This document shows positions 6,810 through 54,903 of a stretch of DNA of 64,000 nt, piece after piece. Under the pieces are notes generated by a model. That model saw only the letters and a list, made by a program, of their open reading frames with translations. It was not told the DNA's origin and did not search any database. Position 1 is the stretch's first letter, and every line of letters begins with the position of its first letter. Made by a program: the position numbers and the translations under genes. The stretch comes from Tritrichomonas foetus. Lineage: Eukaryota > Parabasalia > Tritrichomonadida > Tritrichomonadidae. The DNA is taken from positions 99,552 to 163,551 of the forward strand of contig MLAK01000927.1 in the NCBI GenBank assembly GCA_001839685.1. Reading direction: 5' to 3'.

Positions 6810-8486
6810 ATGAAACTCTTTATTCAGCAAATTCATCAAGATCCCATAGAAATCGATATCTCTCCCGATGCTTCCCTCGAACAATTACGTGAGCTTTTAG
6901 TTTCGCAGCATTCTTATCCATCAGATCGAGAAATCAAATTTATTTATGACGGAACAATTTTAAAACGGTCAACAATTATATCAGAGATTCCAGAAAATGG
7001 AAGAATTGTTGCTTATTTCAAAAAGTCAGCAAAAGAAAGACAGAAGCCAGCGAATAACAAAAATTCTGATATTAATCAGCCTACCCTGCAAAAAAACAAT
7101 ACAATTCAATCAGAAAATTTACCTATTCAAAATGATTCAACCCCCAAAGAATTAACCCAACCAATCGAATCCAACAAAAGTGAAGAAAATATTCATAAAA
7201 ATGGAGAAAATATTCATAAAAATGGAGAAAATATTCATAAAAGTGAAGAAAATATTCATAAAAATGAAGAAAATATTCATAAAAGTGAAGAAAATACTCA
7301 TAAAAGTGAAGTAAATATTCATAAAAATGAAGAAAATATTCATAAATCGGAAAATTCTCAAACAAATCAAAATGATAAAAAGAAGAAAAAGAAGAAGAAG
7401 AAGAAAGTAAGAAAAGTGAACAAAGTAAAATCTGAACAAACAGAAAAAACAGAAAATCTTCAAGAAGAAAATTTGGAATCACACAAACCAAAAAAGGTCA
7501 AAAAACGTTCACATTCTCGTCGAAATAAAAGAAAAAAATCAATTAGAGAATCCCCTATTAACACTGATCATCAAAGAAAAAATAACAAAAATTTGCGTAA
7601 TATTCAAAGTTTAAAATTAGTCAATCTCCGAAACTTAAAAATTTTACAAAATTTACAGTATTTTCAAAATATACATAACTTTCAAACCATACTCAGTCTA
7701 GAGAAATTACTAAATCAAAAAAAATTAAAAAATACGCATAATTGTAACAATATACAAAACACTCAAAATATTCGTAGTCTACAGAGCACACAAAATATTC
7801 CACACATGCAAACACTCTGGAAATATCATCCAACGCAAAATACCATGAATTTCCAAGATCTCAGAAAATTTCATGCCATACCAAGTTTATATAATTTTAA
7901 TTTTTTACAACAACATACTGCCTATCGTAAAAATAATGCTCGTGCTTTTTTAGAATTATTCAAAAATAATCCACAAAATCTCGAAAATTTGAACCAAGGA
8001 AGTAATTTTTTTAGAAGAACGTTGCCTCCAATTGACGAAGCACTTGAAGAAAAATTAGAACTTCTCATTGCAGAATCGATTGAAAAAACACACCTTGAAC
8101 AAATTTATGATGAAAAAAATCGCTTTTATTGTTTTTTGAATGAAACTCGTCGAATTTCCGACTTAGTGGATCATAATCCTGGTTTAAAAATCGTATTAAA
8201 CCAATATTTCAGGAAGAATTATACAGCAGCTTCATCAAATCAAACTTTTGATGTTTCTTCTGCATTTGAGCTCGCCGGTTTTGTAACAACGGCCCCAACT
8301 GTTTTAAAGGATACCGATTCTGCAGAAATTGAACAATTGCCTGATTATTATCAAGACCAAATTTATCGATGGGTGAGGAAAGGATTTAAAAAGCGTGAGG
8401 TGTTACAAGCTTTTGTTCAAAGCGAATTTAATGAAAAAGAAGTCGAAAGAAATTTAATGATTTCAAAAGAAAAAACTAAGGAATAA
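6810..8486 (+). CDS. Ubiquitin-like/UBA-like protein with 7-residue repeats
   Basis: The ATG at 6810 follows a TTG that is not a credible start. Residues 1-72 look like a ubiquitin-like domain (MKLFIQQ..., PDASLEQLRELL, EIKFIYDGTIL). Residues 123-178 are eight copies of a 7-residue repeat of the type K(S/N)(E/G)ENIH, followed by a run of lysines and an Asn/Gln-rich stretch to about residue 370. The last about 40 residues (YRWVRKGFKKREVLQAFVQ...) resemble a UBA domain, and residues 430-470 contain a DHNPGLKIVLNQYF string like a STI1/XPC-binding segment. The order UBL...UBA suggests a divergent Rad23/ubiquilin-like proteasome shuttle. This is an inference from architecture; the low-complexity middle is not known in that family. 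Confidence 0.6.
   Translation: MKLFIQQIHQDPIEIDISPDASLEQLRELLVSQHSYPSDREIKFIYDGTILKRSTIISEIPENGRIVAYFKKSAKERQKPANNKNSDINQPTLQKNNTIQSENLPIQNDSTPKELTQPIESNKSEENIHKNGENIHKNGENIHKSEENIHKNEENIHKSEENTHKSEVNIHKNEENIHKSENSQTNQNDKKKKKKKKKKVRKVNKVKSEQTEKTENLQEENLESHKPKKVKKRSHSRRNKRKKSIRESPINTDHQRKNNKNLRNIQSLKLVNLRNLKILQNLQYFQNIHNFQTILSLEKLLNQKKLKNTHNCNNIQNTQNIRSLQSTQNIPHMQTLWKYHPTQNTMNFQDLRKFHAIPSLYNFNFLQQHTAYRKNNARAFLELFKNNPQNLENLNQGSNFFRRTLPPIDEALEEKLELLIAESIEKTHLEQIYDEKNRFYCFLNETRRISDLVDHNPGLKIVLNQYFRKNYTAASSNQTFDVSSAFELAGFVTTAPTVLKDTDSAEIEQLPDYYQDQIYRWVRKGFKKREVLQAFVQSEFNEKEVERNLMISKEKTKE
7176..7343 (+). repeat. 21-bp coding tandem repeat, 8 copies
   Basis: Eight in-frame 21-bp units encode variants of KSEENIH. 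Differences between units are mostly single-base changes (Ser/Asn, Glu/Gly, Ile/Thr), which suggests recent expansion by slippage. A ninth, truncated unit (KSEN) follows. Confidence 0.9.
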
Positions 8487-11691: not shown

Positions 11692-14600
11692 TTATTTTAC
11701 AGGCATAATCTTATTGAGTGCATAATACAATGTATTATATTTTCTTTGGTATGCAGATGGTATTTCATCTTGGTGTTTCTCAAGCCAAGTTTTATATTCA
11801 TCAACATACTGTTTATACTGGGCTTTATCGGCTGGCTTTAATTTCTTAGTTTTAGATTCATCATTATATGCAGCCTCAGCTCTTTCTAAGAAGTAAACCA
11901 ATTCTGTCTTTCTTTCAGCACGTTTCATCTTCAAGTCATCGTTGAACTTTTCTTGGGCTGCCTGGCGAATCATTTTACTGACTGCTGCCTGCGGCAATGT
12001 TCCCTTATTTTCAACGCTTGCTGTAACTGCCACATGTGTCATTAAATCACGTCCAGTAACAACCAAAATACCATCTTCAGTGATTGTCATAGCAACTTCA
12101 ATCTTTGGAACACCACGTTTTGCAATTTGGATGCCACTCACTGTAACGTGACCAAGTTTAATGTTATCTGCAGCCATTGGTCGTTCACCTTCAACTATAT
12201 CAAAACCAACATTACGTTGCTTATCTCTAATTGTTGTAGCTTGTGTGAATCTCTTGCAAGGAAGTGTAGTGCCTCTTGGAATAATAATCATATTCTTTCC
12301 ATTAGCGCAGGAAATACCTAAAGATAAAGGAACACTTCCATGAATTGCTACACCTCTAAGCTTTTTATCTTGTTGTCCTTTCATGATAGCACCTTGCATG
12401 GCAGCACCTTCAACAACAGCTTCATTTTGGTCAACATCAAAGAATTCCATATCATCACCAAAGAATTTTCTAAGCATTCTTCTTAATCTTGGAATCTTTG
12501 AAGAGCCACCAACAAGTAAAACTTTGCTGATATCACCAATTGCAAGTTCTTCATCAGCAAAGATATCCTCAACAGGTTCAAGGCATTGTTTGAATATATC
12601 ATCACATTGATCTTCAAATTCAGCTCTCGTGATATGGAAATCAAGATCTTTTCCACCATAAAAGTCTGGAATATGAAGATCGGCTTCATCTTGTTCTGAA
12701 AGAGTAATTTTGAGTTTTTCTGCTTCAACACGAAGTCTTCTCATTGCAGCATGTGAATCTCTTGGATCAAGTCCAGTTTTATCCATGAAATCTTTCAAAA
12801 TTAACTGTACAAGGCGATTATCAAAATCAACGCCACCAAGATTTGTGTTACCTGTTGTTTTAATAGCAGTGCAATCACCACCTTCGACAGCTAAGATTGA
12901 AACATCGAGTTTACCACCTCCAAGATCATAAACAAGGACATTTTTAGCTTCATCTTCACCATCTTGGTTTTCACCATCAACTCCATTTTTAACTGCATTT
13001 TCAGCAATTTGCTGAGCATTGAATGAAACTGCAGCAGCTGTTGGTTCGTTGATGATACGGATAACATTAAGGCCTGCAATTTTACCAGCATCCATTGTTG
13101 CTTTACGTTGTGCTTGTGTGAAGAATGCTGGTACTGAAATAACAGCATCAGTTACTTCTTCACCCATTTGGCTTGAAACTAATTCTTTAACGTGAGCAAG
13201 AAGCATTGCGGTGATTTGTTCTGCCGAAAATGTCTTTGTCTCACCATTTATTGGAACTTCAACAGCTGGACGATGTGTTTCTCCATCTTCTACAACTTTA
13301 TATGGAAGGTTTTCAAGGAAAAGAGGCAATGAAGGATCAGTGAAATCACGACCAATTATACGTTTGAAGTCTGTAACAACAACAGCATTTTCATCATCTT
13401 CAAGTGACATTGGAACAACACCAACAATACGATTATCGCCATCAAAGACAACAGCTGACTGAAGAACATTGTCAAGACCGTTTGTGTCAATATTATCATC
13501 ATGGAAGACACCATACCTGCAAAATGTTGTACCAAGATCGATACCCATTGCATATCGTGAATGCTTAACTTCTTGTGGTTCTTCATCACCTTCGCCTGCT
13601 CCTGCACCAGTTCCAGTCTTTGATCCATCGCCACCTTCGCCATTTGCATTGGCACCATCTGTTCCATCACCATTAACACCATCTTTTCCATTTCCATCTT
13701 TTCCATCAGCGCCAGCATCACCAAGGAGAGAGCTTCCCTTAGTATTGAGTAAGTTGCTTGCCTTTCCTTCGCCATCAGCACCATCTGTTCCATCATCATT
13801 TGCACCGGCTTGACTTGCACGACTTCCTGCACGTGATCCTGTTCCACCGGCACCACTTCCACCAGTTTGGCTGAGTCTTGAGCCTGCTCGACTTCCACTT
13901 CCACCAGCTCCAGAACCTCCAGTTTGCCCAAGTTTACTTCCAGCTCTGCTTCCAGATCCATCAGCACCATCTGTGCCTGCTCCTCCATTCTGGCTGAGTC
14001 TTGAACATGTTCTGCTTCCGTTTCCTCCAGTTCCATCAGCCCCATCTTCGCCTGACTGGCCAAGTTTACTTCCAGCTCTACTTCCTGATCCCCCAGCACC
14101 ACCAGCACCGCTTCCATCAGCACCAGCATCACCAAGGAGGGAACTTCCAAGTGTGTTAATCATATTGCTTGCCTTTCCTTGTCCATCAGCTCCTTCACCT
14201 CCTTCTCCATCAGCTCCATTTCCGCCAGCACGACTTCCTGAACGTGATCCAGATCCGCCAGCACCACTTCCTCCTGTCTGGCTGAGTCTTGATCCTGTAC
14301 GGCTTCCATTTCCACCAGCTCCAGAGCCACCTGTTTGACCAAGCTTGCTTCCTGCGCGTGATCCAGATCCACCAACGCCACTTCCACCAAGATTGCCACT
14401 CATTCCAAGTTTTGCATTTTCACTTTCATCTCCAGCACCACCTGATCCATTAGCTCCAGATCCGCCAGTTTGACTAAGTCTGCTTCCAGAGCAGTTTCCT
14501 TGTCTTCCGCTCATTCCAAGCATTGGATTTCCTGATCTGCTATTCGATCTGCTTCCATTTTCATCATTTTCATTATAGTAATTTCCACCATTTTCGTCGT

Positions 14601-15402
14601 TTTCATTAAAGTCGAGCTCTTGACTCTTTGAAAGATCACCTGATTTCATGAGGGATTTAATTGTTTCTGTGAAATCAGCTGTTCCAGCAAATACTTTCTC
14701 TGTGTCTTCATCAGCACGATCACTTTCATCAGTAAGACGTTCGTAGAGATCTTCATTATCGCCATCACCAAATTCATCGCCTTCAGCACCACCTTCACCA
14801 TATTTCTTATTAATTCTGTTTCCATATTCATCATATTCATCATCATCGGCATTCCCACTCTTTCCAGACTGGCCCTTCTTTCCATTCTTTCCAGACTTTC
14901 CATCTTCCCCATCTTCCCCGAGGCCTGCGCCTTTCTTTCCACGTTTGGAAGTTTCTGTTTCAGCCTGCTCTTGATGCGGACGGGTTGTTCTGTGAGACTG
15001 TGTTAATGGAATATTCGGAAGATGTCCATTATCCATGTAAATGTTCAATGCTCGTAGTGCGGCATAAGTCGGATTCACCTCACCCCATAAAATGTCTTCT
15101 GGTCTGACAATTCCTGGCTTTAGGTATCGATAATTCTGAAGGATAGATAAAAATGCGCCAATATTCTTCCTTTTTTCTTGAACTGTCGTAGGCGCTTTGT
15201 TCCATGGAACTGGAATCGGCCTCTTCTGTAACATTTCCATTAAAAGTAAGAAATTGGTACCATCGCAAAAATCGTGGGACAGATCGGCGACTGATTTTCC
15301 TTTCTTTGATAAATGTTTGTTTGCCCATTGCATGGCTTCTTCAACTGGATCCTTTTTTTGCTTATCTTTCTGCGTAGATCGACTTCCTTTCGTTCCAGAC
15401 AT
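11692..15402 (-). CDS. CH domain - Gly/Ser repeat - HSP70 chimera, 1236 aa
   Basis: Three parts in one uninterrupted frame. Residues about 13-125 form a calponin-homology domain (EEAMQWANKHLSKKGKSVAD, DFCDGTNFLLLMEML, PEDILWGEVNPTYAALRALN). Residues about 130-610 are acidic, then Gly/Ser/Arg-rich with repeats of the type GSRAGSKLGQTGGSGAGG. Residues about 617-1236 are an almost complete HSP70: MGIDLGTTFCRYGVF (phosphate 1), DFKRIIGR with the catalytic Lys, INEPTAAAVSF, YDLGGGKLDVSIL (phosphate 2), VLLVGGSSKIPRLRRML (adenosine), a substrate-binding beta domain (GISCANGKNMIIIPRGTTLP) and a shortened helical lid ending MPVK. There is no signal peptide and no EEVD or ER-retention tail, so it is probably cytosolic. 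The Thr of DLGGGT is replaced by Lys. CH domains bind actin or tubulin; a cytoskeleton-tethered chaperone is an inference. Confidence 0.9.
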   Translation of the reverse strand: MSGTKGSRSTQKDKQKKDPVEEAMQWANKHLSKKGKSVADLSHDFCDGTNFLLLMEMLQKRPIPVPWNKAPTTVQEKRKNIGAFLSILQNYRYLKPGIVRPEDILWGEVNPTYAALRALNIYMDNGHLPNIPLTQSHRTTRPHQEQAETETSKRGKKGAGLGEDGEDGKSGKNGKKGQSGKSGNADDDEYDEYGNRINKKYGEGGAEGDEFGDGDNEDLYERLTDESDRADEDTEKVFAGTADFTETIKSLMKSGDLSKSQELDFNENDENGGNYYNENDENGSRSNSRSGNPMLGMSGRQGNCSGSRLSQTGGSGANGSGGAGDESENAKLGMSGNLGGSGVGGSGSRAGSKLGQTGGSGAGGNGSRTGSRLSQTGGSGAGGSGSRSGSRAGGNGADGEGGEGADGQGKASNMINTLGSSLLGDAGADGSGAGGAGGSGSRAGSKLGQSGEDGADGTGGNGSRTCSRLSQNGGAGTDGADGSGSRAGSKLGQTGGSGAGGSGSRAGSRLSQTGGSGAGGTGSRAGSRASQAGANDDGTDGADGEGKASNLLNTKGSSLLGDAGADGKDGNGKDGVNGDGTDGANANGEGGDGSKTGTGAGAGEGDEEPQEVKHSRYAMGIDLGTTFCRYGVFHDDNIDTNGLDNVLQSAVVFDGDNRIVGVVPMSLEDDENAVVVTDFKRIIGRDFTDPSLPLFLENLPYKVVEDGETHRPAVEVPINGETKTFSAEQITAMLLAHVKELVSSQMGEEVTDAVISVPAFFTQAQRKATMDAGKIAGLNVIRIINEPTAAAVSFNAQQIAENAVKNGVDGENQDGEDEAKNVLVYDLGGGKLDVSILAVEGGDCTAIKTTGNTNLGGVDFDNRLVQLILKDFMDKTGLDPRDSHAAMRRLRVEAEKLKITLSEQDEADLHIPDFYGGKDLDFHITRAEFEDQCDDIFKQCLEPVEDIFADEELAIGDISKVLLVGGSSKIPRLRRMLRKFFGDDMEFFDVDQNEAVVEGAAMQGAIMKGQQDKKLRGVAIHGSVPLSLGISCANGKNMIIIPRGTTLPCKRFTQATTIRDKQRNVGFDIVEGERPMAADNIKLGHVTVSGIQIAKRGVPKIEVAMTITEDGILVVTGRDLMTHVAVTASVENKGTLPQAAVSKMIRQAAQEKFNDDLKMKRAERKTELVYFLERAEAAYNDESKTKKLKPADKAQYKQYVDEYKTWLEKHQDEIPSAYQRKYNTLYYALNKIMPVK
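13680..14520 (-). repeat. Gly/Ser/Arg coding repeats with higher-order duplication
   Basis: About eight copies of an 18-20-residue unit, GSR(A/T)GS(K/R)L(G/S)QTGGSGAGG, within the CH-HSP70 gene. The block 'GKASN..NT.GSSLLGDAGADG' occurs twice, about 130 residues apart, so the array is two super-repeats, each a set of short units followed by this block. The DNA is GC-richer than the rest of the window and creates long spurious frames on both strands. Confidence 0.85.
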
Positions 15403-21034: not shown

Positions 21035-22564
21035 TTATAACGGGAAAATAGCACCAAATAAAATCCATGTTACATATAAATTTTCAGCATATGGAAAAAT
21101 TGCTAATGAGAGTGTGAATAATTCTGATTGAGGTGAAAGCATTATATTTGATGCTTTTGTCTGTAATGCCATAAAAATGGATTTAGGATCAGCGGAGTGA
21201 ACACAAAATGGTGCTAATTTAATTGTAGATTTTGGTGGAATTAAATGTCGAATAGCATCATTTACTGGAGGTGCCCAAATATCACAAGATTCATTCAATT
21301 TAGAAGATTCATAAGTTTGGAGTAGTGGCCTCATTGCAATTTCAATTGGCTTATTAAATCGAGTCATTTTTGTATGTCTAACAGCACAAATCATTTTCTT
21401 AACTTCATTTTCTATATCCTCTTCATCAAGAGAATCACACCTAATCAAAGCTGGCTGTGACAAGGGATCAGGCATTTCAAATCTCTTCCATATTCTGGGA
21501 TCATCTGTAACAGCAGGTGGATTTTCAACAAGCGGTTCCAAACGGCACCGATATCCATATAAAATTGTTGTTGGAAGAGTTTCAACATTCACTCTTTCGA
21601 CTTTAAATGGATCCCAAAGTGTTGCATATTTTTCATGAACAGTTAAAACTTTAGTACCACAGACATACGCTTCATAACCAAATCCACAAAATATAGAACA
21701 CAACAATGCACAAATATCAGCTTTGCTTCCACATCTTGATGCTAGTAATGAATGAATTGAAAAACCACGTGTAAATACAGCCTCTTCTTCTTCGTTTATT
21801 TCTTCATTTACAATATTTCCAGTAGTTGCGTATCGTGGACGGTTTATAGTGAATAATCCAGTAAATCTGTTTGCATGAAAAGGTGTTGGAATAAGTCTTG
21901 ATGACAGTTTACAAATATGCGTTGCGTTTGGTGTTTCATTTCGAAGTAAGTTTTCTAATTCAGCTTGCGTACAAAGCTGTGGAGACATTTGCAGTTTAAC
22001 ATGAACAACGCCACAAGCGTCACCTGTTCGAGGATCATTTAAAGTGACGGGAAGACCGATGTATCCTGCTAAGGCACGACGCCAATCAAATGATCCTGTT
22101 CCATAAACACATGTACTTGGACCAGCAACTAAAACTGCACATATTGAGCCCGCGCCATAATGAATTAATTCGTCAACAGGTTCTGGAAGTTCGATGTTAA
22201 AAGTATCGAAAAACTTTGGATCAGCATCTGCTTCAACTTGTGAACTTCTCCATCGGCGACCAGCTACATTAAAATCTAACAAAATTCTTGTGCTTGGATC
22301 AGCATCCATGATTTCGATGAATGAAGATGCTCGAACAACAGTGATAGAGAGGACTTGGCCACTAGGTGGATTTGGTCTCTGTATTGTCATTTTTGGCAAT
22401 TCAACAACCGGTTCAGGATGAATAATTCGTTGTTTCGGAGGAACGGCAGCTGCCATTCTTTTTTGAAGAAAATCATGAACATATTGTTTCATATCTACAT
22501 TTGACGTAAAGCGTTTTAATCGTTCGCGATCAGAATCAGTGATATCGACATTGGGAATCGACAT
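21035..22564 (-). CDS. CEP76: CEP76-like protein (C2 plus transglutaminase-like domain)
   Basis: 509 residues from the ATG at 22564; the frame upstream of it is entered only by GTG. Residues about 65-200 form a C2-like beta domain (VLSITVVRASSFIEIMDADP, STRILLDFNVAGRRWRSSQV, GVVHVKLQMSP). Residues about 265-370 form a transglutaminase/protease-like domain, with FSIHSLLASRCGSKADICAL, LLCSIFCGFGYEAYVCGTK and ATLWDPF. This is the CEP76 pattern '(w)hsfLs.rkGd.edHa.LLCsLLLGFGldAyVcvGTK'. The protein is somewhat shorter than animal CEP76. In animals CEP76 sits at centrioles and restrains their reduplication; related C2/TGL proteins occur in ciliary transition zones. The catalytic triad is not evident, as in CEP76. 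Confidence 0.75.
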   Translation of the reverse strand: MSIPNVDITDSDRERLKRFTSNVDMKQYVHDFLQKRMAAAVPPKQRIIHPEPVVELPKMTIQRPNPPSGQVLSITVVRASSFIEIMDADPSTRILLDFNVAGRRWRSSQVEADADPKFFDTFNIELPEPVDELIHYGAGSICAVLVAGPSTCVYGTGSFDWRRALAGYIGLPVTLNDPRTGDACGVVHVKLQMSPQLCTQAELENLLRNETPNATHICKLSSRLIPTPFHANRFTGLFTINRPRYATTGNIVNEEINEEEEAVFTRGFSIHSLLASRCGSKADICALLCSIFCGFGYEAYVCGTKVLTVHEKYATLWDPFKVERVNVETLPTTILYGYRCRLEPLVENPPAVTDDPRIWKRFEMPDPLSQPALIRCDSLDEEDIENEVKKMICAVRHTKMTRFNKPIEIAMRPLLQTYESSKLNESCDIWAPPVNDAIRHLIPPKSTIKLAPFCVHSADPKSIFMALQTKASNIMLSPQSELFTLSLAIFPYAENLYVTWILFGAIFPL

Positions 22565-25318: not shown

Positions 25319-26379
25319 GAAAAATATGATTGGGATTTCTCCAATTTCTATTAGTAAATTTCGTTTCTTTCGAAGTTTATTTTGAAGTGAAAAGTAAACA
25401 TGAATTAGTTAATGTCGTAAAACTGTAAGATATTCCTCCGAAAGAGAAAATAGGTTCTGCTGATAAAATAATTGAGTTGGATTTAGAAAATAATTGAAAA
25501 ATCCCAAATAATCGATGGTTATTTAATGAAAAATCTAGCCGATTTTATATGAAGACTATTTCATTGAACTAAGTATATTTTACATGAAGGAGAGATGGAG
25601 TTCCAAAACATTCTTTTTTGACACAAGTTTGACAATAATCCAAATTATTAAGAAACTGCAGTGGCATTTGTCAGCTATTGTCAAAAAATGATTTTATCTC
25701 AACATTCACTCAAAACACATTTTTTTATGATCAACGAATAGTTTAAACATATGTCTAAAGCATCCTTTATTTAACAAATCAATAGAGTTAACTTGATTTT
25801 ATGACATTGCAACAATTATTCATTTTCTAAACATACATTTTCTTTCGTAATTTCACCTTCTTCTTTTATTGTAAGTTTCTAACATAAGTTTAAATATATT
25901 TACAAACAATGAGCTTGGAAGTTTCTTCAAATCGACGTTTAAGATATTTTTCTGTCAGAAATCATAATACTTATGCTCTCAATAAAATGAGTTAGTATTC
26001 ACCATCTGGTTATAGAAAAAAGTTTGCACCAAATTCACTAATAATGATTTTTCCAGATAAGAATCATTCTTAAACTGTCTTTAGTGATCAATAAGCGAAA
26101 TATGTCTTTATATCATTTTATATAAAATATAATTGAAGTTCAAAATCCTTCCAATATTATTGGTTGGAAGTTCAGAATGAAATTTGGGTACTTTTTCATT
26201 ATTCTTACACTTTTATCACTTTTAATGTCAATTTCTAATTTAGTTCTTATATTCTAAGTTGTCAACACATCAAAAAATGAAAAAAGTGATTTTCTTGTCA
26301 TATAACATGTCACAAATTCTTTCACATGATATTCAAAAAGTTGGTATTTATTTTCTTTTTCTTTCAGTACGTTAATTGT

Positions 26380-26384
26380 TCATT
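26380..26384 (+). promoter_or_regulatory. Initiator-like TCATT
   Basis: TCATTTAAAAAATCACGG directly precedes the ATG at 26398. It supports that ATG over the in-frame one at 26326. Confidence 0.5.
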
Positions 26385-26397
26385 TAAAAAATCACGG

Positions 26398-27870
26398 ATG
26401 GAGAATCCAGCGGAAGTCCAAGAGTTGCGCAATAAATTGCGTATGATGAAATTACCTCAAGACGATATTCTAAACATTGTTCGTCGCCAACAGCGTGCAA
26501 TTCATAAACAAAAGCAAGCCAATGATACAATTCGCAATGAAATCACTGAATATGAGAACCAAATCCGAAATTTAGATAAAGACATCGAAAAGTATAAAAA
26601 TAACGAAGAACTTCAAAAGTTGCACTCACAATTCAAGAGTTTGACAAACAAAAATAGCATCATCGCCGCAGACTTGGCTGCCGAAGAAGGCAAGCGCAAG
26701 AAACTTGAAGAGGAGGTATCAAAAGCAAATTCCAAAGCCGGCGGTCTTTTCCAGCAATTGCATGAAAACGAACAATTGCAAAGTCGTTTGAGAACAATGG
26801 AAAACCGTCTAGATAAAGCTCTATTGAGATACAACAAGACTTTGATCAAATTGGCTTCAATGAGGTCAGAAATTGATGAAACTCGAAAAAATCGAGCCAC
26901 CTTCAGAAACATCATTAAAAATGCAGACATGGACAGTCAAGCAAAAGACCAAGAATTGACCAATTTAATTTCTATCTCAAATGATGCATATTCTGAACGA
27001 GATAGAATGAAAATGGAGCTCGTGAGAATTAAGCAAGCTGAAAAAGAAGACATTCAACTCTATGAAACTGAACTTTCTCGTTTGAATCAAACAATTGAAG
27101 GTCAAAGGTTGACACAGAATCGACCAAGGCAACAATCAGTTGTTCCATCAATTAACAGCCAAATGGGATCACAAAATGATCAACAAGAAGAACTTACACA
27201 ATTAACTGATCAATTACAAACCACTATTCAGAAAACACTCGATTTAACAGGAATGGCAAGCGTTGAGGAATTGATCGCACACGCTGATGAAGTTGAACGT
27301 GAAAATTTCTCGTTATACAATTTTGTGGTTGAACATGGTGCAAATAAATCCAAGCTACAAGATGAAATTGATGCACTTGAACTTCAACATCAAGTTCTCT
27401 TGAAACAAGTGAATGTTAAAGATGATGAACAATCAGAAAAATTCCAAGAGTTAACAAATAAAATCGAAAATATAACGAATCAATTAAATGAAGTAAATGA
27501 AACAAAAGCTAAAAATGAAGCAGAATTTACTTCTATTTATGAAGCTATTCAGAAATTATTCGAATTCTATGAATGTTCATGGGATGAAGCACCTGATGAA
27601 ACTCATCGTGTCGGTCCAATGAATGCAATGTTCTGTTTATCACAAATTGAAAATGCAATAGCGAACATGATGAATGAAATATGCGAGAAAACAAAGGTTC
27701 TCTATCAAATGAGAGGACAAGATCCAAAATCTCTTCTTGTAGATGATAAATCAGATGCTTCACAAGCTAAATCACATACAAAAGCAGTTGAAAGAGATTT
27801 AACTAAAGAGAAGTGCATTGAATCTAATAAGCCATTAACACTTGAAGAAATGAGAGCTCTTTTAGGTTAA
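26398..27870 (+). CDS. Outer-arm dynein docking complex-like coiled-coil protein
   Basis: 490 residues from the ATG at 26398. The frame extends 24 codons upstream to 26326 through a hydrophobic Phe/Ile stretch, but an initiator-like TCATTT lies between the two ATGs and base composition changes at the second, so I choose the later start. Nearly the whole protein is coiled coil. 'LIKLASMRSEIDETRKNRATF' and 'ENFSLYNFVVEHGANKSKLQ' correspond to conserved stretches of the CCDC63/CCDC114 (ODAD1) and Chlamydomonas DC2 family, and the usual weakly conserved C-terminal tail follows. These proteins bind doublet microtubules and anchor outer dynein arms in motile axonemes. The family assignment is likely; orthology to a specific member is not settled. 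Confidence 0.7.
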   Translation: MENPAEVQELRNKLRMMKLPQDDILNIVRRQQRAIHKQKQANDTIRNEITEYENQIRNLDKDIEKYKNNEELQKLHSQFKSLTNKNSIIAADLAAEEGKRKKLEEEVSKANSKAGGLFQQLHENEQLQSRLRTMENRLDKALLRYNKTLIKLASMRSEIDETRKNRATFRNIIKNADMDSQAKDQELTNLISISNDAYSERDRMKMELVRIKQAEKEDIQLYETELSRLNQTIEGQRLTQNRPRQQSVVPSINSQMGSQNDQQEELTQLTDQLQTTIQKTLDLTGMASVEELIAHADEVERENFSLYNFVVEHGANKSKLQDEIDALELQHQVLLKQVNVKDDEQSEKFQELTNKIENITNQLNEVNETKAKNEAEFTSIYEAIQKLFEFYECSWDEAPDETHRVGPMNAMFCLSQIENAIANMMNEICEKTKVLYQMRGQDPKSLLVDDKSDASQAKSHTKAVERDLTKEKCIESNKPLTLEEMRALLG

Positions 27871-41592: not shown

Positions 41593-44500
41593 ATGCTCAA
41601 TGGCGATGATTTTCCTTTATTTTCCGGAATAGGAACCGGTGTTGTTTGCTCAGGCAATGGCCTTGCAAGTTTGATGAAATTTCTTTTAGCAAATTCGTCC
41701 GTCGCTTTTGTTGATCAAAATTTTTTACACCCAATACCAACGCATTTTGGTTTCAACGAAGACGATGAATACTTAGACGATATAGATTCAGAATTTATAA
41801 ACTTAATTTTTTCAAACATGTTAGTTGAATTCCCGAAATCACTTAATGATAAGAAAAATAAAGAATTTTCTAATATTAATGAAGCCATTATCAATAAATA
41901 TATTGTTCCCTCAATTAAGCAAACTCTAGATGAAGATCCTTCAATGCTTCCCATTTTATTTAATCATCTTGATCATTTTGTCGGCAGCATTACAGCAACA
42001 TCAGATGATTGCGATATAGCGTTTTCATCTGGAATTTCCGAAATTCTTTTTGATAGTATAAATCCTGGAAAATTAGACGTTCAAACACTTTCTAATATTT
42101 TAAATTCATGCATAAATTATATCGCACAATTTGGTTCTTCAATAGATTGCTTTCTTCTTGCCAAAACTTGGTTGAAATCTTCCCCACAGCCATTTTTAAA
42201 TTACACATCATTAGAAGAAGAAATTGGTTATCATAAATTTTTTGGCTCAAAAATTGGCAACCAAATAATCGAAAATCGAATGACATTAAAAAAACCACTT
42301 TTTCATTTTTTTAGTAATTTACTTTCTACTAGAATTTGTTTGTGGAGAGGTTATCTTTTCGTTGCAGGATATGACTATGGTGTCACTAAATGTGGAACAG
42401 GCTTTTATGGCACCATTCCAGGAACTTTAATTGCTCGTAATTCATTTTTTAAAAATTTTCACCCAATTTCAATCGGCGTCATTAATGATTTAATCGTTTT
42501 TAAAGGTTCTGATAAATTTGAAACAACTACCTATATTCTTGATATTATGACATTAAATATAATAAATAAAATTGACGTTTTTTCACAAAAAGCCACTTTT
42601 TGTACCTGCAATAATTTATTTTATTTAAATGAATGGGATAAAACAATCAAAGTTTACACATTTGAAAATAATCAATTTCATGAAATTTACACGAAAACTT
42701 TCGATTATGATCTTGATTTCCAGGTTTTTGATGAGTTTACCAATGGCTCAAGTTATTTTCTTTGGGGAGGATCTAAATTTTTGGAGTTAATTTTCAACAC
42801 CCAACAAGTTACAAGTTTTTCACCAGCAGCAGAGAGAAATCGATATGTTTTTGATTCTTGGTCACTTCAATTTTTTCTTATTGATGACCAAGGATTAACA
42901 ATTAAAACAAATATGGAAATATCTAATCGTATTGAAATCCCACAAAATAAAGCTGAAAATCCACTTGATATTATTCATTTTTTTGTTTATTATTACTCAA
43001 ATAAACTATTACAAACACGATTTTGCCATACCCCTGAATTTAATCTTCTTGTTCCGTTAATTGAAATGGTAGATTCAAATATAGAATATCGAAAATATAT
43101 CCCTGTATTACTTGAAGCATCAATTCAATCACTTGAGGCAGGTAATATTTTATCCGAAGACATATTTAATATGTATCTTTCTCATTTAAATGAATTTTAT
43201 AAGGATTTCCCGGCAGTTACTTTAGCATTTTTAGCAACTTTTATTACTAGTGAAAAATCGTTTCGTGAGCCAATTCTCAAAAATGCTGTGAATTTTTCAA
43301 TCTTATTTCCAGCAATTTCTTTAGTTCCATCTCTTAATAAAATCGTTTTAACTCATTTATTGACAAATGAAAAAAGCCTTGAAGCAATTAAACAGTTATT
43401 CATTAATTTTGATCATATATCTCTTGGGTTTTTGAATGTTTTAAGTCAAAGTATAGCTTATCAATTAACATTCGATCTCAAAAAATCAAAAAAATTAGCA
43501 GAGAGTTTAATGAATTTGATTAGTTATTCAGATTCAACATTATTTTATTCTTTTCTTGAAAATTTCTTTTTCCCATTTTCAAAGGCCATGAATATATTAT
43601 ATAGTTCTGCTGACATGCTGATTCGCATATTACCACATTTAAAAACACCAGAAAAATTACAACAAGGTGACTCATTTTATTTATCATCCCAATTAATTTC
43701 AGATATTTCAATCAATTCAGACCGACAAATTAAATTGCCAAAATCCGGAAAATTATTTGATTTAGAATTACCAATAACATCAAAAATTATAATGGATTTT
43801 ATTTTCCCTCATAAAATTAGTTGTGAAAACCTTTATTTATTTGTTTATTCAACTAAATCGCAAAAAGAGCATATTGACTTTCTTCCACCATCTGGCTCAA
43901 AACCAACTGAATACATCAGAGCAATTTATAATGCTTCTTATGCTGCGGTTGATGTGGATGTCACTGAAAATGGCCCAGATGAGCTAACCTATACAGTAAA
44001 TTGTGAAATCCCAATCTTGTCAATTTCCAAAAGTCTAATGGTAATTTCAATATTTCAATTTTATTGGGAAGCTGCAATTATTATAATTGAGTACTTAAAG
44101 CAAGAATCACAAAACGAAAAAGCTCAACAATTATTTGATGTAGTTTTCCAGAACATTCCTAATTTTGATAAAACTCAAAAATTTGCAAATATTGATATAT
44201 CCTTATTAAATACTGAAAGTAATATTAAATTTATTAAAGAGAAATTAGAAACTAAAGATTTCAAACAAAAGTTATTTTATCTGACATCAGCTGTAAAATT
44301 GCCGAATTCATTTCCTTCTAAGATTATTATGAAACACTGGAATCAATTATTTACCCAAACAATGAATATGACTGCTACTATTCAATATCAACAACTTAGA
44401 ATGATAATAGACCATATTGATACAAGTGATTCTTCTTTTCTTGACATTTCTAAAACGTTAATTATGCAAAGACAAAATTATGATGATTATCATTTATTAA

Positions 44501-47500
44501 TAATTATAAATGTAATATTAAAATATCCAACAAATGTTTTAGACCATAAAATAATTATGAAGTTTGTATTTAATTATTTTACAAAATTCTCAAATAATTT
44601 ATATATATCATACTTTGAAAAAATTTTCGAAAAATTTGAAATCAAAATCGATAAAATAGATAATAAAATTAAATCAGCATTAAAAGAAATGAATTCTGGT
44701 GTTGACAACCCATTTTTATTTAGGAAATATTTCCTTTGTTGTCGATTTCTCCGCCGTTTTATGACTAATAACGCATTTAATGATCTTATTCAATTTTTTG
44801 ATAATTGTAATCCATGCTTATTTGGTGCTCTTCTCATTTTATCAGTGAGATATGCCCCAATCACTGTAAATGATTCATTTTATATTGAATCCAAAAATCC
44901 AATTGATTTGAAACTCAATGATTTTAATAGTTTATTATTTGTTTTTGAAACAGAAACAGGAGCACGTCTTTGTCATCCGCCTTACGATTTTCATGCGTAT
45001 TTACCATACATGAATTACTTTAAACATAAATTAGAAGAGCCATTACCAGCACTAAATTCGAATTTAATACATAAAGTGATTGATTTCCTTGATGGTCCAT
45101 ATCATGGATTGGTTGTTGATGCATTATGTGATCTCTCAATTAATTCTACATCATCCTTAAAATTAATACTTCCAACTGTTCTTGAATACGAAAAAATACC
45201 AGAGCCTATAATTGATGGAAAAAAGTTTCGGCATTCAAAAGAATTTTCAATTTTCCTTCGTTCATTCTTTTCTGCTAAACATAAATCTGTAAATGTTGTA
45301 TTTTATGATGAATTAGGCACTAATTTTAAAATTACACTTGATCGGAATGGGAAATATAAATTACTACTCAATGATCAGCATAATCGGGAAATTTGTATTT
45401 GGAGTATTACTGATCATTTTATCGCAAGTGTTTTACCTGGAAATGAGCCCAAAATAATTGATTGCTACTTTGGACTTTCTCCAACTTTCCAGGTTGTTTA
45501 TTTGAAACTCGGAAGCCATTTTTGGGTGAATTCCATTCATTCAACACCGAATATCCAAAATGCAAGAATTGGAATAGTCGGGAATGAAGGTACTTTTGAT
45601 GTAAAAGTTATAGATACAGTACCAGATATTTTGGTTCCAACAGTAAATCCTTCATATGTCTTAGTTGATAATTCTATTAAAACGTTTGAAAAATTTTCTA
45701 AAAAGGCTAAAAAATTGGATGGTGAAATTGTCTTCATGCCTTTTATTAAAAATGAAGGTCAAAAGTTTTATATGGAGGTGACACACAATTGTAAATCAAT
45801 TTCGGTAAAACTTACCCCTTCATTTGTTTCTAATTCTGTATTTTATCACTTTGAAATACCTTCTCTTGAACAGGCAACAACATTCGGAATCTTAATTGAC
45901 TTTTCATGCTCTTCAGTTTGTGTACATATAAATTCAGTTTTGCCGGAATCCATTAGATATTTTCCAAAAATTCCATTTGTTTGTTTGTCTCTTAATCATA
46001 GTGAAGCAAGAACACTAGATTTCAATTTTGGTGAAAAGCCATATATTCGAATAGATAGTGATTTTACTTTTCCATCAATTGAAGAAATGAAGTTCGTTGA
46101 CTATTTCCCAAAAATAAACGAAAGCCCAGAAAAATTTCAATCATATCATTTTTCACCTGCGATTGACTGTCCATTTAGACCATCTGGTCTTACTTTTCCA
46201 ATTGAAATCGGAAGACCTGCATTTTTAAATGTTGATTCTAAACCACATATTGGAATGATAAAGCAAAATTCTTTTGAGTCATCAACTCTTCCAAAATTAC
46301 CAGACGAATTTAATAAATTGTCCCTTTGGTCGACACCTTTTGATACATGTGAAAATGTTGAAATTGCAACAATTCATTCGCTCTTCTTTATTAGAGATAG
46401 AGTAGATCAGCAATATGATATATCGTTTAATAGAATTGCTAAAAATGCAATTAATATTTATGATGGAAACTTTTGTAACCCACATAATATAACACTAAGA
46501 AATTATATGTTTACAATTCAACATCAAGCTGAAACAATGATTCATATCTTATCCTCAAAGGAGTTTATTAATTGGGAATCATTTCATGAATATTTTATAA
46601 AATCGGTCAATATTCTTGCAACATTAGACTTAAGAACTGATACTCCATTTTCTGCATTAATGTTTGAAAAAATCAAGAGTAATCCTAATTTTGTTACATA
46701 TTATCTTATACAATCAAGATTAATGTTTACAACAATTGATAAACAATTTTTAAAGACTGCAAAATTTAGGTCAATACATGCAAACAGTGTTGGAAACTTT
46801 GAACGAATATCTGATCTTGAATGTGATTTAATATTCATTCGTCCAACAAAATTAGCTTTTATTAATTCAGAAATCACTTTAATTGATCGAAACCAAAATT
46901 CAGTTAGCTTTACAAAAAATCCATCAACGAAATTAGTTACTTTTATGCGAAGTGAGTTTATTTTTGACACTATTCATAATTATGATGTTATTATGTGTTA
47001 TTTCATTCCTATTGACTTCAAAAACCCTCACTATGATATCGGCTATGCATTTCCAATTCATTTCATTAACCATGTTGTTGAATTAATAAAAGAAACAAAA
47101 GATCGAGAATTAGCGAAGAAACTACATGATTACTTTTTGCATCCTGTTTGGGAGTACTTTATGGAAAATGGGGAAGTTCCATTTGATGAATTTTTTGCAG
47201 GATGGCTCAGTGTAATTCTAACAACTAATAACGTTTTTGATTTATCTTCCATTCATTCTTATTATAAATCTTTTAAAAATGAAAATGTTTTAATTGAATC
47301 AAATTACAATACATTGGTTGCTGTTTCCATTGTCTTAATTGCTTCTAGCTATTGTTATTTCTTATCATCTTCTTCTGATAATTCTGTTAATATAAATAAT
47401 GAGAATACTAGCCAACAACGGGAAAAACTTTTTAAGTTTTTCCAACCAGATGTAAATAATTCATTTTATCATGAATTTAAATTAGCAGTTGCTGCTGATT

Positions 47501-48858
47501 TAGCAAATCCACTTGGTTCACATTTTCCTCTTCTTTTAAATAATTTCCCACTCATTACACCACTGATTAACCAATTAATACAGATTACTCGGCCTTTTGA
47601 TTTACCCAAAACCGCAAATATATCAAATCTTATGCCAAATTCAAATTTGATCTATGAAGCTCCTCTGGATTCCACGCCAATCACTGATGGATTTTTACCG
47701 TTTGCTTTAAGTTTACATCAATGTAACAATCCATTTACCGGCAATTTTTTCATTATGGCAAATCCATCAACTAAAGCACCGAGTTCCGATTTGAATATAT
47801 CTTTTATTTCTGATTCTAATTATCTTTCATCGTCATTAACTGGTTTAAGTTATAACGACATTTTATTTGAGCTTTCTGAAAAATGGGATTTACATTTTGA
47901 AGCTTTGTGTTTCTATATAAATACAATTTTATCTATATTAGATATTGAGATTACTAACTTCCGATGTTTTGAACCAATCATTAAGAAGTTGTTCCCAACA
48001 ATTTCTATTGAAGCTGCTTTATTTCAATTAATGATCACCAAAATTCGGTATCGAAGGAAATATTCAATCAATAATCATAAAACTCCATTTTTTGGTGATC
48101 TTTTATTTATTTTAGAAATTTCCCCAGATGTAATCCAGCCGAAAGAATTCGTTGATGAATATCATAAAAGAAAATATTTAAAGAAAACACTGAATCCGAA
48201 AAATCAATCTGACACTTATTTTGAACTGTCAAAATATTTTGATTTCTGCTTTCCGCATAATTATCAGGAATTATCAGGCCTTATTCATTATACAATTGGT
48301 AAGACTATATTAAGATATAAAGAAATATATATTCATGATATTTTCGTTCAAAATTTGTATGGTGACAAATTTGAATGGAAAAGGTCCGCCTTTTTACCAA
48401 ATCCTAAATCAAAAAGTAAGAAAGAGCTTGAAGCTTTTACAGCTTTTGGAACTCATCTTGTGATTGCATTTGAGCGTGGGCTATCAGTCCACATGGTTGT
48501 TTCAAGAGTTGTTATTCGATATGCATTTGATTGTGATCTAATTCTTGATGATTTTGCCGATGTAGATCAAGAATTTGCTTTGCATGGAACAATTGATCAA
48601 ATTCCTGCTAAAATTGAAATAATTAAACCACAGCTTGAAGCAATTCGAATGGGAGTGTTGAAAATGAAGCCAATTACGTATCATTTTTATTTTAAACTAC
48701 CATTTTTCCCGCGATTTGTTCAATTGATGCCAATTTATGATATTTGGTCTAAAACAAAGCTTCTAAAAACAATAGAACAACCATATGCTGTATTTCAAGC
48801 CATTTTAAATATCACGCAAAAAATATTCGAAAAAGCCAAACGATCTTTTAAATTATAA
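41593..48858 (+). CDS. Giant protein, 2421 aa, possible degenerate HECT-like C-terminus
   Basis: One uninterrupted frame of 7.3 kb; the ATG at 41593 is preferred over a TTG six bases earlier. Residues about 240-460 look like a beta-propeller-like region (LWRGYLFVAGYDYGVTKCG, SSYFLWGGSKFLELIF), flanked and followed by long helical solenoid stretches. Residues about 1250-1550 are beta-rich. Near the C-terminus (about 2276-2340) the sequence FTAFGTHLVIAFERGLSVHM... with LILDDFADVDQEFALHGTI resembles the N-lobe of HECT ubiquitin ligases ('F...G.lig.Al..g..l'). The protein stops about 80 residues later with no recognisable catalytic-cysteine C-lobe. The organisation recalls HECTD4-type giants, but this is an inference and the gene may be a family-specific scaffold. 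Confidence 0.8.
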   Translation: MLNGDDFPLFSGIGTGVVCSGNGLASLMKFLLANSSVAFVDQNFLHPIPTHFGFNEDDEYLDDIDSEFINLIFSNMLVEFPKSLNDKKNKEFSNINEAIINKYIVPSIKQTLDEDPSMLPILFNHLDHFVGSITATSDDCDIAFSSGISEILFDSINPGKLDVQTLSNILNSCINYIAQFGSSIDCFLLAKTWLKSSPQPFLNYTSLEEEIGYHKFFGSKIGNQIIENRMTLKKPLFHFFSNLLSTRICLWRGYLFVAGYDYGVTKCGTGFYGTIPGTLIARNSFFKNFHPISIGVINDLIVFKGSDKFETTTYILDIMTLNIINKIDVFSQKATFCTCNNLFYLNEWDKTIKVYTFENNQFHEIYTKTFDYDLDFQVFDEFTNGSSYFLWGGSKFLELIFNTQQVTSFSPAAERNRYVFDSWSLQFFLIDDQGLTIKTNMEISNRIEIPQNKAENPLDIIHFFVYYYSNKLLQTRFCHTPEFNLLVPLIEMVDSNIEYRKYIPVLLEASIQSLEAGNILSEDIFNMYLSHLNEFYKDFPAVTLAFLATFITSEKSFREPILKNAVNFSILFPAISLVPSLNKIVLTHLLTNEKSLEAIKQLFINFDHISLGFLNVLSQSIAYQLTFDLKKSKKLAESLMNLISYSDSTLFYSFLENFFFPFSKAMNILYSSADMLIRILPHLKTPEKLQQGDSFYLSSQLISDISINSDRQIKLPKSGKLFDLELPITSKIIMDFIFPHKISCENLYLFVYSTKSQKEHIDFLPPSGSKPTEYIRAIYNASYAAVDVDVTENGPDELTYTVNCEIPILSISKSLMVISIFQFYWEAAIIIIEYLKQESQNEKAQQLFDVVFQNIPNFDKTQKFANIDISLLNTESNIKFIKEKLETKDFKQKLFYLTSAVKLPNSFPSKIIMKHWNQLFTQTMNMTATIQYQQLRMIIDHIDTSDSSFLDISKTLIMQRQNYDDYHLLIIINVILKYPTNVLDHKIIMKFVFNYFTKFSNNLYISYFEKIFEKFEIKIDKIDNKIKSALKEMNSGVDNPFLFRKYFLCCRFLRRFMTNNAFNDLIQFFDNCNPCLFGALLILSVRYAPITVNDSFYIESKNPIDLKLNDFNSLLFVFETETGARLCHPPYDFHAYLPYMNYFKHKLEEPLPALNSNLIHKVIDFLDGPYHGLVVDALCDLSINSTSSLKLILPTVLEYEKIPEPIIDGKKFRHSKEFSIFLRSFFSAKHKSVNVVFYDELGTNFKITLDRNGKYKLLLNDQHNREICIWSITDHFIASVLPGNEPKIIDCYFGLSPTFQVVYLKLGSHFWVNSIHSTPNIQNARIGIVGNEGTFDVKVIDTVPDILVPTVNPSYVLVDNSIKTFEKFSKKAKKLDGEIVFMPFIKNEGQKFYMEVTHNCKSISVKLTPSFVSNSVFYHFEIPSLEQATTFGILIDFSCSSVCVHINSVLPESIRYFPKIPFVCLSLNHSEARTLDFNFGEKPYIRIDSDFTFPSIEEMKFVDYFPKINESPEKFQSYHFSPAIDCPFRPSGLTFPIEIGRPAFLNVDSKPHIGMIKQNSFESSTLPKLPDEFNKLSLWSTPFDTCENVEIATIHSLFFIRDRVDQQYDISFNRIAKNAINIYDGNFCNPHNITLRNYMFTIQHQAETMIHILSSKEFINWESFHEYFIKSVNILATLDLRTDTPFSALMFEKIKSNPNFVTYYLIQSRLMFTTIDKQFLKTAKFRSIHANSVGNFERISDLECDLIFIRPTKLAFINSEITLIDRNQNSVSFTKNPSTKLVTFMRSEFIFDTIHNYDVIMCYFIPIDFKNPHYDIGYAFPIHFINHVVELIKETKDRELAKKLHDYFLHPVWEYFMENGEVPFDEFFAGWLSVILTTNNVFDLSSIHSYYKSFKNENVLIESNYNTLVAVSIVLIASSYCYFLSSSSDNSVNINNENTSQQREKLFKFFQPDVNNSFYHEFKLAVAADLANPLGSHFPLLLNNFPLITPLINQLIQITRPFDLPKTANISNLMPNSNLIYEAPLDSTPITDGFLPFALSLHQCNNPFTGNFFIMANPSTKAPSSDLNISFISDSNYLSSSLTGLSYNDILFELSEKWDLHFEALCFYINTILSILDIEITNFRCFEPIIKKLFPTISIEAALFQLMITKIRYRRKYSINNHKTPFFGDLLFILEISPDVIQPKEFVDEYHKRKYLKKTLNPKNQSDTYFELSKYFDFCFPHNYQELSGLIHYTIGKTILRYKEIYIHDIFVQNLYGDKFEWKRSAFLPNPKSKSKKELEAFTAFGTHLVIAFERGLSVHMVVSRVVIRYAFDCDLILDDFADVDQEFALHGTIDQIPAKIEIIKPQLEAIRMGVLKMKPITYHFYFKLPFFPRFVQLMPIYDIWSKTKLLKTIEQPYAVFQAILNITQKIFEKAKRSFKL

Positions 48859-53283: not shown

Positions 53284-54903
53284 ATGTTAAATCATCATCA
53301 ATATCTCATTTTTCATCCTCCATCTTCGATCTACGAAACAACATTCACGTCACCCAGCGATATTAAATGCAATTTCAAATTAGGTTCATATAATAAGAGA
53401 CTTGTATCAAAGATCTTGTCATTTAATGGCTTGACCCCATCGAACAATAATGAGTTTACTTTGATGTGGGGATCATCTCCAGATACAGACGAAATTGTGC
53501 CTATCTCTGTATATCAAAAACTGAACCATTTTCCATACTCAAAAAGAATTTTGGGAAATAAAGCCGAACTTGCATTTATTATTCAAAAACACCCTCATAT
53601 TCTCGACTTCCCTCGATTTTTCCCGCGAACATTCATCCTTCCAGCGGATCGAGATAATCTTTATCGCCATATGAAAATGAATCCCAACCAGCCATTTATT
53701 TCAAAGCCAGCTGGTGGAAGTTGTGGCCATGGTATCAAAATTGTAAAATATGCAGATTTTTATTCAATCCCAACTGATTATGTTGTTTCTGAATATATTC
53801 AACGACCTTTATGCATTGATGGATTCAAATTTGATTTACGAATCTATGTTCTGGTCACTTCATTTGCTCCACTCCGTGCTTTTGTTTACCGTGAAGGACT
53901 TGCACGCTTTGCAACCGAGTCGTATTCAAACATCTCACAAAACGTCTATTCTCACCTCACCAATGCAACACTTAATAAGCACAGCCAACACTGGAATAGC
54001 CAATTCAAATGGAAACTGAGTGAGGCTTTACACGAAATCGAGCACCGCTTCAATCGTTCGTGTGATGAAGTCATGCAACTCATTTTAGATACAGTTGCAA
54101 GAACACTTGCTCTTGTTCAACATGTAATGGCACCTAATGAACGTAGAAATGCAGTTGATCCATTTTTTGAATTATTCGGTTTTGATTTGCTTCTTGACCG
54201 TAATTTCAAAATGTGGCTTATAGAAATAAATACTTTTCCATCTCTTGGTTTTGATGAAGATGTTGATTTCGAAGTTAAAGCGCCACTTGTAGCACAGGCA
54301 CTATCAATTGCAGGAATTCCAAATCTTCGTCTAAAAGATTTACCAACAAGATGTGATGTGTCACCGGAAAACATTGACAAAATTGATCAAGAAATTATTC
54401 GTGGTGAAGATAAAAGAAATGAAGCTTCCGGAAATGGATTCATTCGTATATTCCCACACGCAGCCACACAGGATCTACAGCCATTATTAACTGTTCCTCG
54501 GTATATTGGAAAAGTTGTCAGAAAGAAAAGACCAGAAAACATCCATCCAACAAAAATCGGAAAATTGCTGACTTCTGATCAATCAATGGATTTACTTTTA
54601 TGTTATTTAAGCAAAATATATAAAGACATATCAAATGATCAAGCATCAAAAGTTATAAATTCACGAGTAGCTGCCTTTTTATCTGCTCAAGGATACCAAA
54701 TAAATAAAAATTGGTCAAATCTGTCAATAATATTAAAGAATTACATTAAAAGGCAAAGAGCAAAAGCTGCACTTTCAACAAATTACCAAAAACTTCCTGA
54801 TGATGTCAAAGATAAGATTTTGGATTCTGGTGATGAATTTATTGGACAAGCCATGCTTAATACTAATCTCAAGGTCAAAAATGTCAGATCATTGTTTTAT
54901 TAA
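53284..54903 (+). CDS. TTLL: Tubulin tyrosine ligase-like (TTLL) protein
   Basis: 539 residues. The TTL/ATP-grasp core runs from about 20 to 345. Visible motifs are the Trp-Gly entry (TLMWGSSPD), FPRTFILPADRD, FISKPAGGSCGHGIKIVK for nucleotide binding, VVSEYIQRPLCIDGFKFDLRIYVLV, REGLARFAT, SHLTNATLNK, and the acidic metal-binding FFELFGFDLLLDRNFKMWLIEINTFPSL. The DLR and EIN catalytic signatures are intact. The set fits the glutamylase branch (TTLL4/5/6 and relatives), although glycylase activity cannot be excluded from sequence by eye. Such enzymes add glutamate chains to tubulin tails in axonemes and stable microtubules, which fits a flagellate with a strong cytoskeleton. The C-terminal 150 residues are helical. 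Confidence 0.9.
   Translation: MLNHHQYLIFHPPSSIYETTFTSPSDIKCNFKLGSYNKRLVSKILSFNGLTPSNNNEFTLMWGSSPDTDEIVPISVYQKLNHFPYSKRILGNKAELAFIIQKHPHILDFPRFFPRTFILPADRDNLYRHMKMNPNQPFISKPAGGSCGHGIKIVKYADFYSIPTDYVVSEYIQRPLCIDGFKFDLRIYVLVTSFAPLRAFVYREGLARFATESYSNISQNVYSHLTNATLNKHSQHWNSQFKWKLSEALHEIEHRFNRSCDEVMQLILDTVARTLALVQHVMAPNERRNAVDPFFELFGFDLLLDRNFKMWLIEINTFPSLGFDEDVDFEVKAPLVAQALSIAGIPNLRLKDLPTRCDVSPENIDKIDQEIIRGEDKRNEASGNGFIRIFPHAATQDLQPLLTVPRYIGKVVRKKRPENIHPTKIGKLLTSDQSMDLLLCYLSKIYKDISNDQASKVINSRVAAFLSAQGYQINKNWSNLSIILKNYIKRQRAKAALSTNYQKLPDDVKDKILDSGDEFIGQAMLNTNLKVKNVRSLFY

Follow-up and report, generated by a model that had tools for sequence, protein, structure and literature searches.

HSP70 is among the most conserved of proteins and is normally steered by separate co-chaperones. 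Its relative Hsp110/Sse1 performs a job that needs no ordinary cycle. A protein with a calponin-homology (CH) domain, CPC1/SPEF2, shares a cytoskeletal assembly with HSP70 in the ciliary C1b complex, and the accessible part of the source describes HSP70 as a likely C1b/C1f component (PMC7999657). There, the two are separate proteins on microtubules. In the gene described here, which lies in a 64,000-nucleotide stretch of Tritrichomonas foetus DNA (hereafter the window; GenBank assembly GCA_001839685.1, contig MLAK01000927.1, positions 99,552 to 163,551), CH and HSP70 are instead parts of a single polypeptide, whose CH does not score as the CH_2 type. T. foetus is a cattle parasite of the Parabasalia. 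In our analysis, the single unusual gene turned out to be one of a family that shares a change in the active site and whose named members all belong to Tritrichomonas. Apparently, a protist lineage fused HSP70 once to a cytoskeletal domain, retained the fusion through duplications and changed a loop that controls hydrolysis. The family would offer a natural test of HSP70 working without normal cycling, as well as a candidate component of the trichomonad cytoskeleton, few of whose proteins are known.

The CH-HSP70 gene and its relatives

The gene occupies one uninterrupted frame of 1236 codons plus stop (15402..11692, minus strand), and no open frame was left in any of 2000 shuffles of its sequence. 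Open reading frame (ORF) and Pfam analyses thus agreed with a previous sequence-only reading, which had reported a single stop-free frame with CH, repeats and HSP70; the strand was corrected to minus. An in-frame TAG four codons upstream of the ATG makes a longer N-terminus impossible, which places the CH at the protein start. Database entry P0001 (1114 residues) corresponds to the window protein and lacks the CH because its model begins at residue 123. Third-position GC content was identical in the linker and the HSP70 part (0.21 each) and higher in the CH part (0.36). The features of the gene, with the evidence for each in brackets, are as follows:

11692..15402, minus strand: CH-HSP70 fusion gene, one open frame (ORF, Pfam, Tritrichomonas musculus orthologue P0002)
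15013..15351, minus strand: CH domain, residues 18-130, six predicted helices, CH1/parvin-CH2-like (Pfam, model, fold matches)
14695..15012, minus strand: polar/acidic spacer, residues 131-236, evolving fast (26% of 89 aligned residues identical to P0002)
14599..14694, minus strand: short conserved linker stretch, residues 237-268, FAGTADFT...SKSQE (70% identical to P0002)
13567..14598, minus strand: Gly/Ser/Arg repeat array, residues 269-612 (motif and tandem-repeat analysis)
12385..13566, minus strand: HSP70 nucleotide-binding domain, residues 613-1006 (Pfam, alignment)
12910..12912, minus strand: Lys831 in DLGGGK, at the phosphate-loop Thr position (alignment)
12337..12384, minus strand: HSP70 interdomain linker, residues 1007-1022, alternate hydrophobics present, VLLLD consensus gone (alignment)
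11983..12336, minus strand: HSP70 substrate-binding beta domain, residues 1023-1140, pocket changes F426 to A and I438 to F (alignment)
11695..11982, minus strand: HSP70 alpha-helical lid, residues 1141-1236, complete, without disordered tail and EEVD (alignment; C206/P0007 model)

Pfam placed the CH (PF00307) at residues 19-105 (E 4.1e-10, 40.3 bits against a cut-off of 26) and the HSP70 (PF00012) at residues 619-1233, where it covers profile positions 2-594 of 599 (E 4.1e-146, 488 bits). An additional MreB match within the HSP70 region was discarded as an overlap arising from the shared ATPase fold rather than a separate domain. The intervening low-complexity linker (residues 136-612; 28% Gly, 13% Ser) measures 477 residues, in line with the roughly 480 residues estimated before. 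Its Gly/Ser/Arg array comprises seven SRxxSxxxx repeats and two copies of [EQ]GKASNxxNxxGSSLLG. The FAGTADFT...SKSQE stretch and two copies of [EQ]G[KR]A[ST][ND]xxN..G..L[LV]G are common to the window protein and P0002, and these conserved motifs could be docking or modification sites. Across the family, the linker ranges from 24 to about 620 residues.

A search with the whole protein, scored among the 7990 candidates sharing most words, returned 33 matches. Both PF00307 and PF00012 were found by hmmscan in eight of them (P0002-P0008 and P0011), which are thus public proteins with both domains beyond the window protein; for the remaining 24 besides P0001, no CH was listed. P0002, the T. musculus orthologue, has the same CH-linker-HSP70 layout and bears the database name 'Hsp70 chaperone', P0004 is T. 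musculus M9Y10_044963, and P0007 is the T. foetus 'Heat shock protein SSA3'. These three share the architecture of the window protein and carry database names only, with no published description of the fusion found. Likewise, no description of a CH-HSP70 fusion or of HSP70 chains was found in the open-licence literature searched, which omits most subscription papers and was mostly assessed by listing; this agrees with the earlier statement that no such protein had been described, although database entries of this architecture exist. CH and HSP70 terms occur in unrelated places of PMC4053983, and the accessible part of a T. foetus transcriptomics study reports transcripts of the Hsp70 family but does not name the fusion (PMC9203502). 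Searches with the CH region retrieved family members only (3 of 57 and 1 of 18 candidates), in a procedure that needs shared five-residue words, so that distant fusions, for example in T. vaginalis, could escape.

Within the T. foetus assembly (63.7 Mb, with the contig of the window labelled C537), at least five CH-HSP70 loci were detected counting the window, the others being C206, C370 minus, C370 plus and C723. The C206 frame (811 residues) is identical to P0007. C370 minus (C370:16533-18809) encodes a single-unit CH-HSP70 of 759 residues from Met, and C370 plus (C370:20023-26621) a CH with three HSP70 units in overlapping 644- and 1612-residue frames with one frame break. The two loci adjoin and form a local cluster of the family. 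In C723 (C723:130830-135071), a long stretch rich in Glu and Lys and containing an N gap separates the CH from an HSP70 in which the phosphate-loop Thr is retained. Of note, the genome yielded 64 HSP70-profile matches, many of them weaker or partial and in frames of about 650-1260 residues, which outlines a large and divergent HSP70-related set.

A maximum-likelihood tree of HSP70s (40 rows, 607 columns) was computed from the 19 family rows, 10 of the 20 fetched T. foetus HSP70s and 11 of 24 other HSP70s. All family rows fell on one branch (100/100), apart from the 10 T. foetus and 11 other sequences. An enlarged tree of 63 rows, which included all 20 T. foetus and 24 other HSP70s and was built by a quick method with many long branches, again gathered the family on one branch (SH-aLRT support, that is, the Shimodaira-Hasegawa-like approximate likelihood-ratio test, 99). 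The window HSP70 was not among the cytosolic HSP70s in either tree. The CH tree comprised 27 domains, of which 15 were non-fusion T. foetus CHs matching the family profile at E <= 1e-3; these came from 11 of the 20 fetched CH stretches and represent the more similar part of 45 CH matches. The 12 fusion CHs occupied one branch (100/99), apart from the 15 others. Groupings starred for support in both trees were the window protein with P0002, P0004 with P0006, C370 minus with P0011, and a six-member group holding the window protein; the pair of C206 and P0005 was starred in the HSP70 tree only. C723 formed a long branch that apparently split first within the family, unstarred (86/69 in the HSP70 tree and 94/94 in the CH tree), and is possibly nearest to the ancestral state. 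Since the CH and HSP70 trees agree, the two parts were most likely passed on jointly from a time before the duplications. Most likely, CH and HSP70 were fused once and then duplicated as a unit.

Identity to P0002 over aligned positions was 81% in the CH, 76% in the nucleotide-binding domain (NBD), 88% in the substrate-binding beta domain (SBD-beta) and 85% in the lid, with 69% in the 16-residue interdomain linker. It was 26% over residues 131-236, 70% over residues 237-268 and 56% over the Gly/Ser region, where 209 of 344 positions could be aligned. A pseudogene was ruled out by the 81% identity of the CH and the 76-88% of the HSP70 domains to T. musculus. Given the P0002 orthologue, the paralogues and the two congruent trees, we are close to certain that both the family and the fusion are real.

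The altered HSP70 and its possible holding role

The window HSP70 has the same whole NBD, SBD-beta and lid as cytosolic HSP70s (human HSPA1A; T. foetus C121, C968 and C677, with 38-40% identity to the last three), from which it differs in the CH and linker ahead of it, a Lys in place of a Thr, an altered substrate pocket and the loss of the EEVD. Site counts for the phosphate loop, interdomain linker and pocket were anchored on motifs in 19 family units, with two degenerate P0003 units left out, counts out of 21 units were read from alignment columns, and the residue numbers F426, I438, V389, L390, L391, D10, K71, T13, R171 and D393 are those that we take to apply in Hsc70 or DnaK. The Thr of the DLGGGT phosphate loop (Hsc70 T204, DnaK T199, BiP T229) is Lys in 18 of the 19 family units, with C723 keeping Thr, versus Thr in all 11 other HSP70s and in nine of ten T. 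foetus non-family HSP70s. The tenth of these, the divergent C350 (C350:8500-10800), has a Lys in a degraded loop, DLGSYKLN. The phosphate-loop Asp is present in all 19 family units, with the second Asp conserved in 13 and replaced by Glu in six. The D10 and K71 columns are preserved in 19/21 family units, the T13 column holds Thr in 14/21 and Ser in 5/21, and the column of the J-domain-contact Arg (R171, Hsc70) holds Arg in 16/21. In the units that include the substrate pocket, F426 is replaced by Ala, Thr or Ser in 17/17 and I438 by Phe in 15/17. The interdomain linker is mostly hydrophobic at the V389 and L391 positions and mostly polar at the L390 position. Loss of the linker Asp (DnaK D393) was considered as a family lesion and rejected, as Asp is found in seven of 19 family units and Asn in four of ten T. 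foetus non-family HSP70s. The lid, described as shortened in the sequence-only reading, proved complete, with 89/89 reference positions filled, and lid helices are seen in the predicted model of the relative C206/P0007. What is missing is the tail with the EEVD, in 13/13 family C-termini including that of the window protein (KIMPVK), whereas T. foetus C121, C968 and C677 end in EEVD.

Tentatively, and somewhat short of an even chance, we read the window protein as an HSP70 tied to the cytoskeleton that cycles slowly or not at all and has a holding or structural function. The N-terminal CH would anchor it to the cytoskeleton, most likely to cortical actin or an actin-associated partner, and the flexible linker would set its reach. 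The C-terminal HSP70 would bind ATP as well as a limited range of clients and hydrolyse slowly or never; anchored in this way, it would play a holding or structural part and would not be a general refolding machine. The data establish the gene, the family with its single origin, the Thr-to-Lys and pocket signatures and the complete lid, and the CH fold class by prediction. Actin as the anchor, slow hydrolysis and the holding or structural role are all three points that we infer; in broader terms, a cytoskeleton-tethered chaperone is the leading idea.

Regarding hydrolysis, substitutions of the equivalent Thr have been described elsewhere. In the accessible parts of the respective reports, DnaK T199A shows greatly lowered ATPase rates with uncompromised allostery (PMC12406271), and BiP T229G shows slowed ATPase with wild-type-like conformational features and serves to trap the ATP state (PMC5655141). 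By analogy, we infer that hydrolysis by the window HSP70 would be slow or absent and ATP binding retained. Other points count against our reading. According to the title of their 1993 article, O'Brien and McKay reportedly found Thr204 not essential for hydrolysis; the literature searched yielded Ala and Gly variants only, with no measured Lys variant at this Thr; and the hydrophobics at both inserted positions of the interdomain linker suggest that ATP-driven allostery may be intact. Hsp110/Sse1 offers another comparison as an HSP70 relative. Sse1 chains appear at ranks 48-50 of the 50 fold matches shown for the C206 model, lower than HSP70 chains, with 23% identity versus 30-38% for the listed HSP70 chains, and the family lacks an Hsp110-type loop. 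DFGDSS/DVGHSS-like loops occur in other T. foetus proteins.

The most serious contender is an ordinary cycling HSP70 with a cytoskeletal address, which would provide full folding activity at the actin cortex or the axoneme. It fits the completeness of all domains including the lid, the invariant loop Asp and the frequent Arg in the R171 column. Against it stand the Lys, found in 18/19 family units versus 0/11 other and 1/10 T. foetus non-family HSP70s, the consistently different pocket residues and the EEVD missing from every family C-terminus, and we rate it as doubtful. Localised folding activity, as the sequence-only reading had envisaged, would likewise be doubtful because the Thr-to-Lys change is combined with an altered pocket and no EEVD.

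A purely structural alternative, which we consider improbable, would see HSP70 units reused as building blocks of the cytoskeleton in trichomonads, either rods or crosslinks, with the multi-HSP70 arrays as the clearest case. Such arrays were found in C370 plus, with its three units, and in two further members. C239 (C239:73791-85245) contains five distinct starts of HSP70, of which four share a 3375-residue frame that spans an N gap; no CH was detected in the fetched C239 stretches by the family CH profile. In P0003, a CH is accompanied by three HSP70 stretches, and the phosphate-loop motif is missing from the first two of them. Upstream of the first C239 unit lies a 598-residue frame whose end, a single in-frame stop, immediately precedes that unit. 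Inner units are largely lidless: six of them occupy 0-8 of the 89 lid positions (40 in one case) and the three last units 85-88, in a count that leaves out two inner units interrupted by a gap or frame break. In the arrays, a run of lidless or partial units ahead of a single lidded one suggests a structural or multivalent role, and the conserved pocket region and full lid of the single-unit members suggest that these hold a client or partner. The latter weighs against a purely structural function, as a mere spacer would need neither the 88%-conserved substrate domain nor a full lid. In addition, the C239 unit number is unsure because the array borders a gap of 2508 N, both edges of which carry the same 568-bp block, present a further time inside. 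Moreover, the proteins named so far from the costa, the striated fibre of trichomonads, are mainly alpha-helical and likely coiled-coil, according to the accessible part of PMC13071381, where 'heat shock', 'calponin' and 'hsp70' each occur 0 times; no link between the costa and HSP70 appears in the accessible parts of two reviews. It is also unlikely, in our estimate, that CH-anchored, Lys-substituted HSP70 units locked in one nucleotide state, single or chained with one final lid, would clamp or crosslink the actin cortex to further structures of the cell.

The CH domain and its putative anchor

Judged by sequence and predicted fold, the CH of the window protein is of the PF00307 CH1/parvin sort rather than of the sperm/axoneme CH_2 type. 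Its sequence is closest to alpha-actinin, parvin, plectin and filamin, its structure model (predicted local-distance difference test score, pLDDT, 84.5) has the CH fold, and the top fold matches listed for this model are parvin CH2 and filamin/alpha-actinin CH1. It thus shares the sequence type and predicted fold of the actin-binding CH1 of alpha-actinin, filamin and plectin and of parvin CH2. It differs from those proteins in that it is single, without a CH2 after it and hence without the tandem-CH actin-binding layout, and in that it is joined to an HSP70. PF00307 scored above its cut-off in four of the five fusion CHs tested, and CH_2 (PF06294, cut-off 27) in none of the five, with no listed match for the window CH. 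No EB1- or NDC80-type microtubule CH was among the fold matches shown, an absence that proves nothing.

On these grounds, cortical actin or an actin-associated partner would most likely be the anchor. Several observations pull the other way. Lone CH domains often fail to bind F-actin alone. The C370 plus CH scored below the PF00307 cut-off (19.3 versus 26), and sub-cut-off matches were obtained to CAMSAP_CH in three of five fusion CHs (13.4-17.9 bits versus a cut-off of 27) and to CH_2 in two of five (12.9 and 15.8 bits). The equal likeness to parvin CH2 would also allow a non-actin partner, and structure titles among the fold matches, seen as titles, name parvin CH2 bound to a paxillin LD motif.

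The sequence-only reading had proposed an axonemal or cortical role. Its axonemal half now ranks below the actin side, since the CH belongs to the CH1/parvin type of PF00307 and no CH_2 or CAMSAP match rose above cut-off. In keeping with this, an axonemal chaperone resembling the ciliary C1b complex appears very improbable. C1b probably does pair a CH-bearing CPC1/SPEF2 with HSP70, and the C206 model matched in fold, among others, HSP70 chains from the C1 central pair of Chlamydomonas, as would be expected for any HSP70. However, four of the five fusion CHs tested scored as PF00307 and none as CH_2, the T. foetus genome has separate CH_2 domains (seven above cut-off), and actin-binding CH1 and parvin CH2 head the listed fold matches. 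Finally, that two genes were joined by an assembly error or spurious read-through can practically be dismissed: the linker is repetitive and the P0001 model starts after the CH, but the same order in P0002 and in short-linker relatives (about 24-80 residues) refutes an assembly join within the repeats, the trees are congruent and an in-frame stop precedes the CH ATG.

Surroundings of the gene in the window

No Rfam match was found in the window at gathering thresholds, and a parabasalid start-site motif 5' of the ATG is absent for the CH-HSP70 gene and patchy in the window, and was not used as evidence. A 2421-residue frame at 41593-48858 has no Pfam match at E 0.001. Pfam further identified genes of centrosome or flagellum type, namely CEP76-like (21035-22564), ODAD1-like coiled coil (26326-27870) and tubulin-tyrosine ligase family (53284-54903). 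Two tandem arrays were detected, one at 61573-61856 with a 16-base unit (17.8 copies, 92% matches) and another at 7176-7346 with a 21-base unit (8.1 copies), the latter within a 558-residue frame at 6810-8486.

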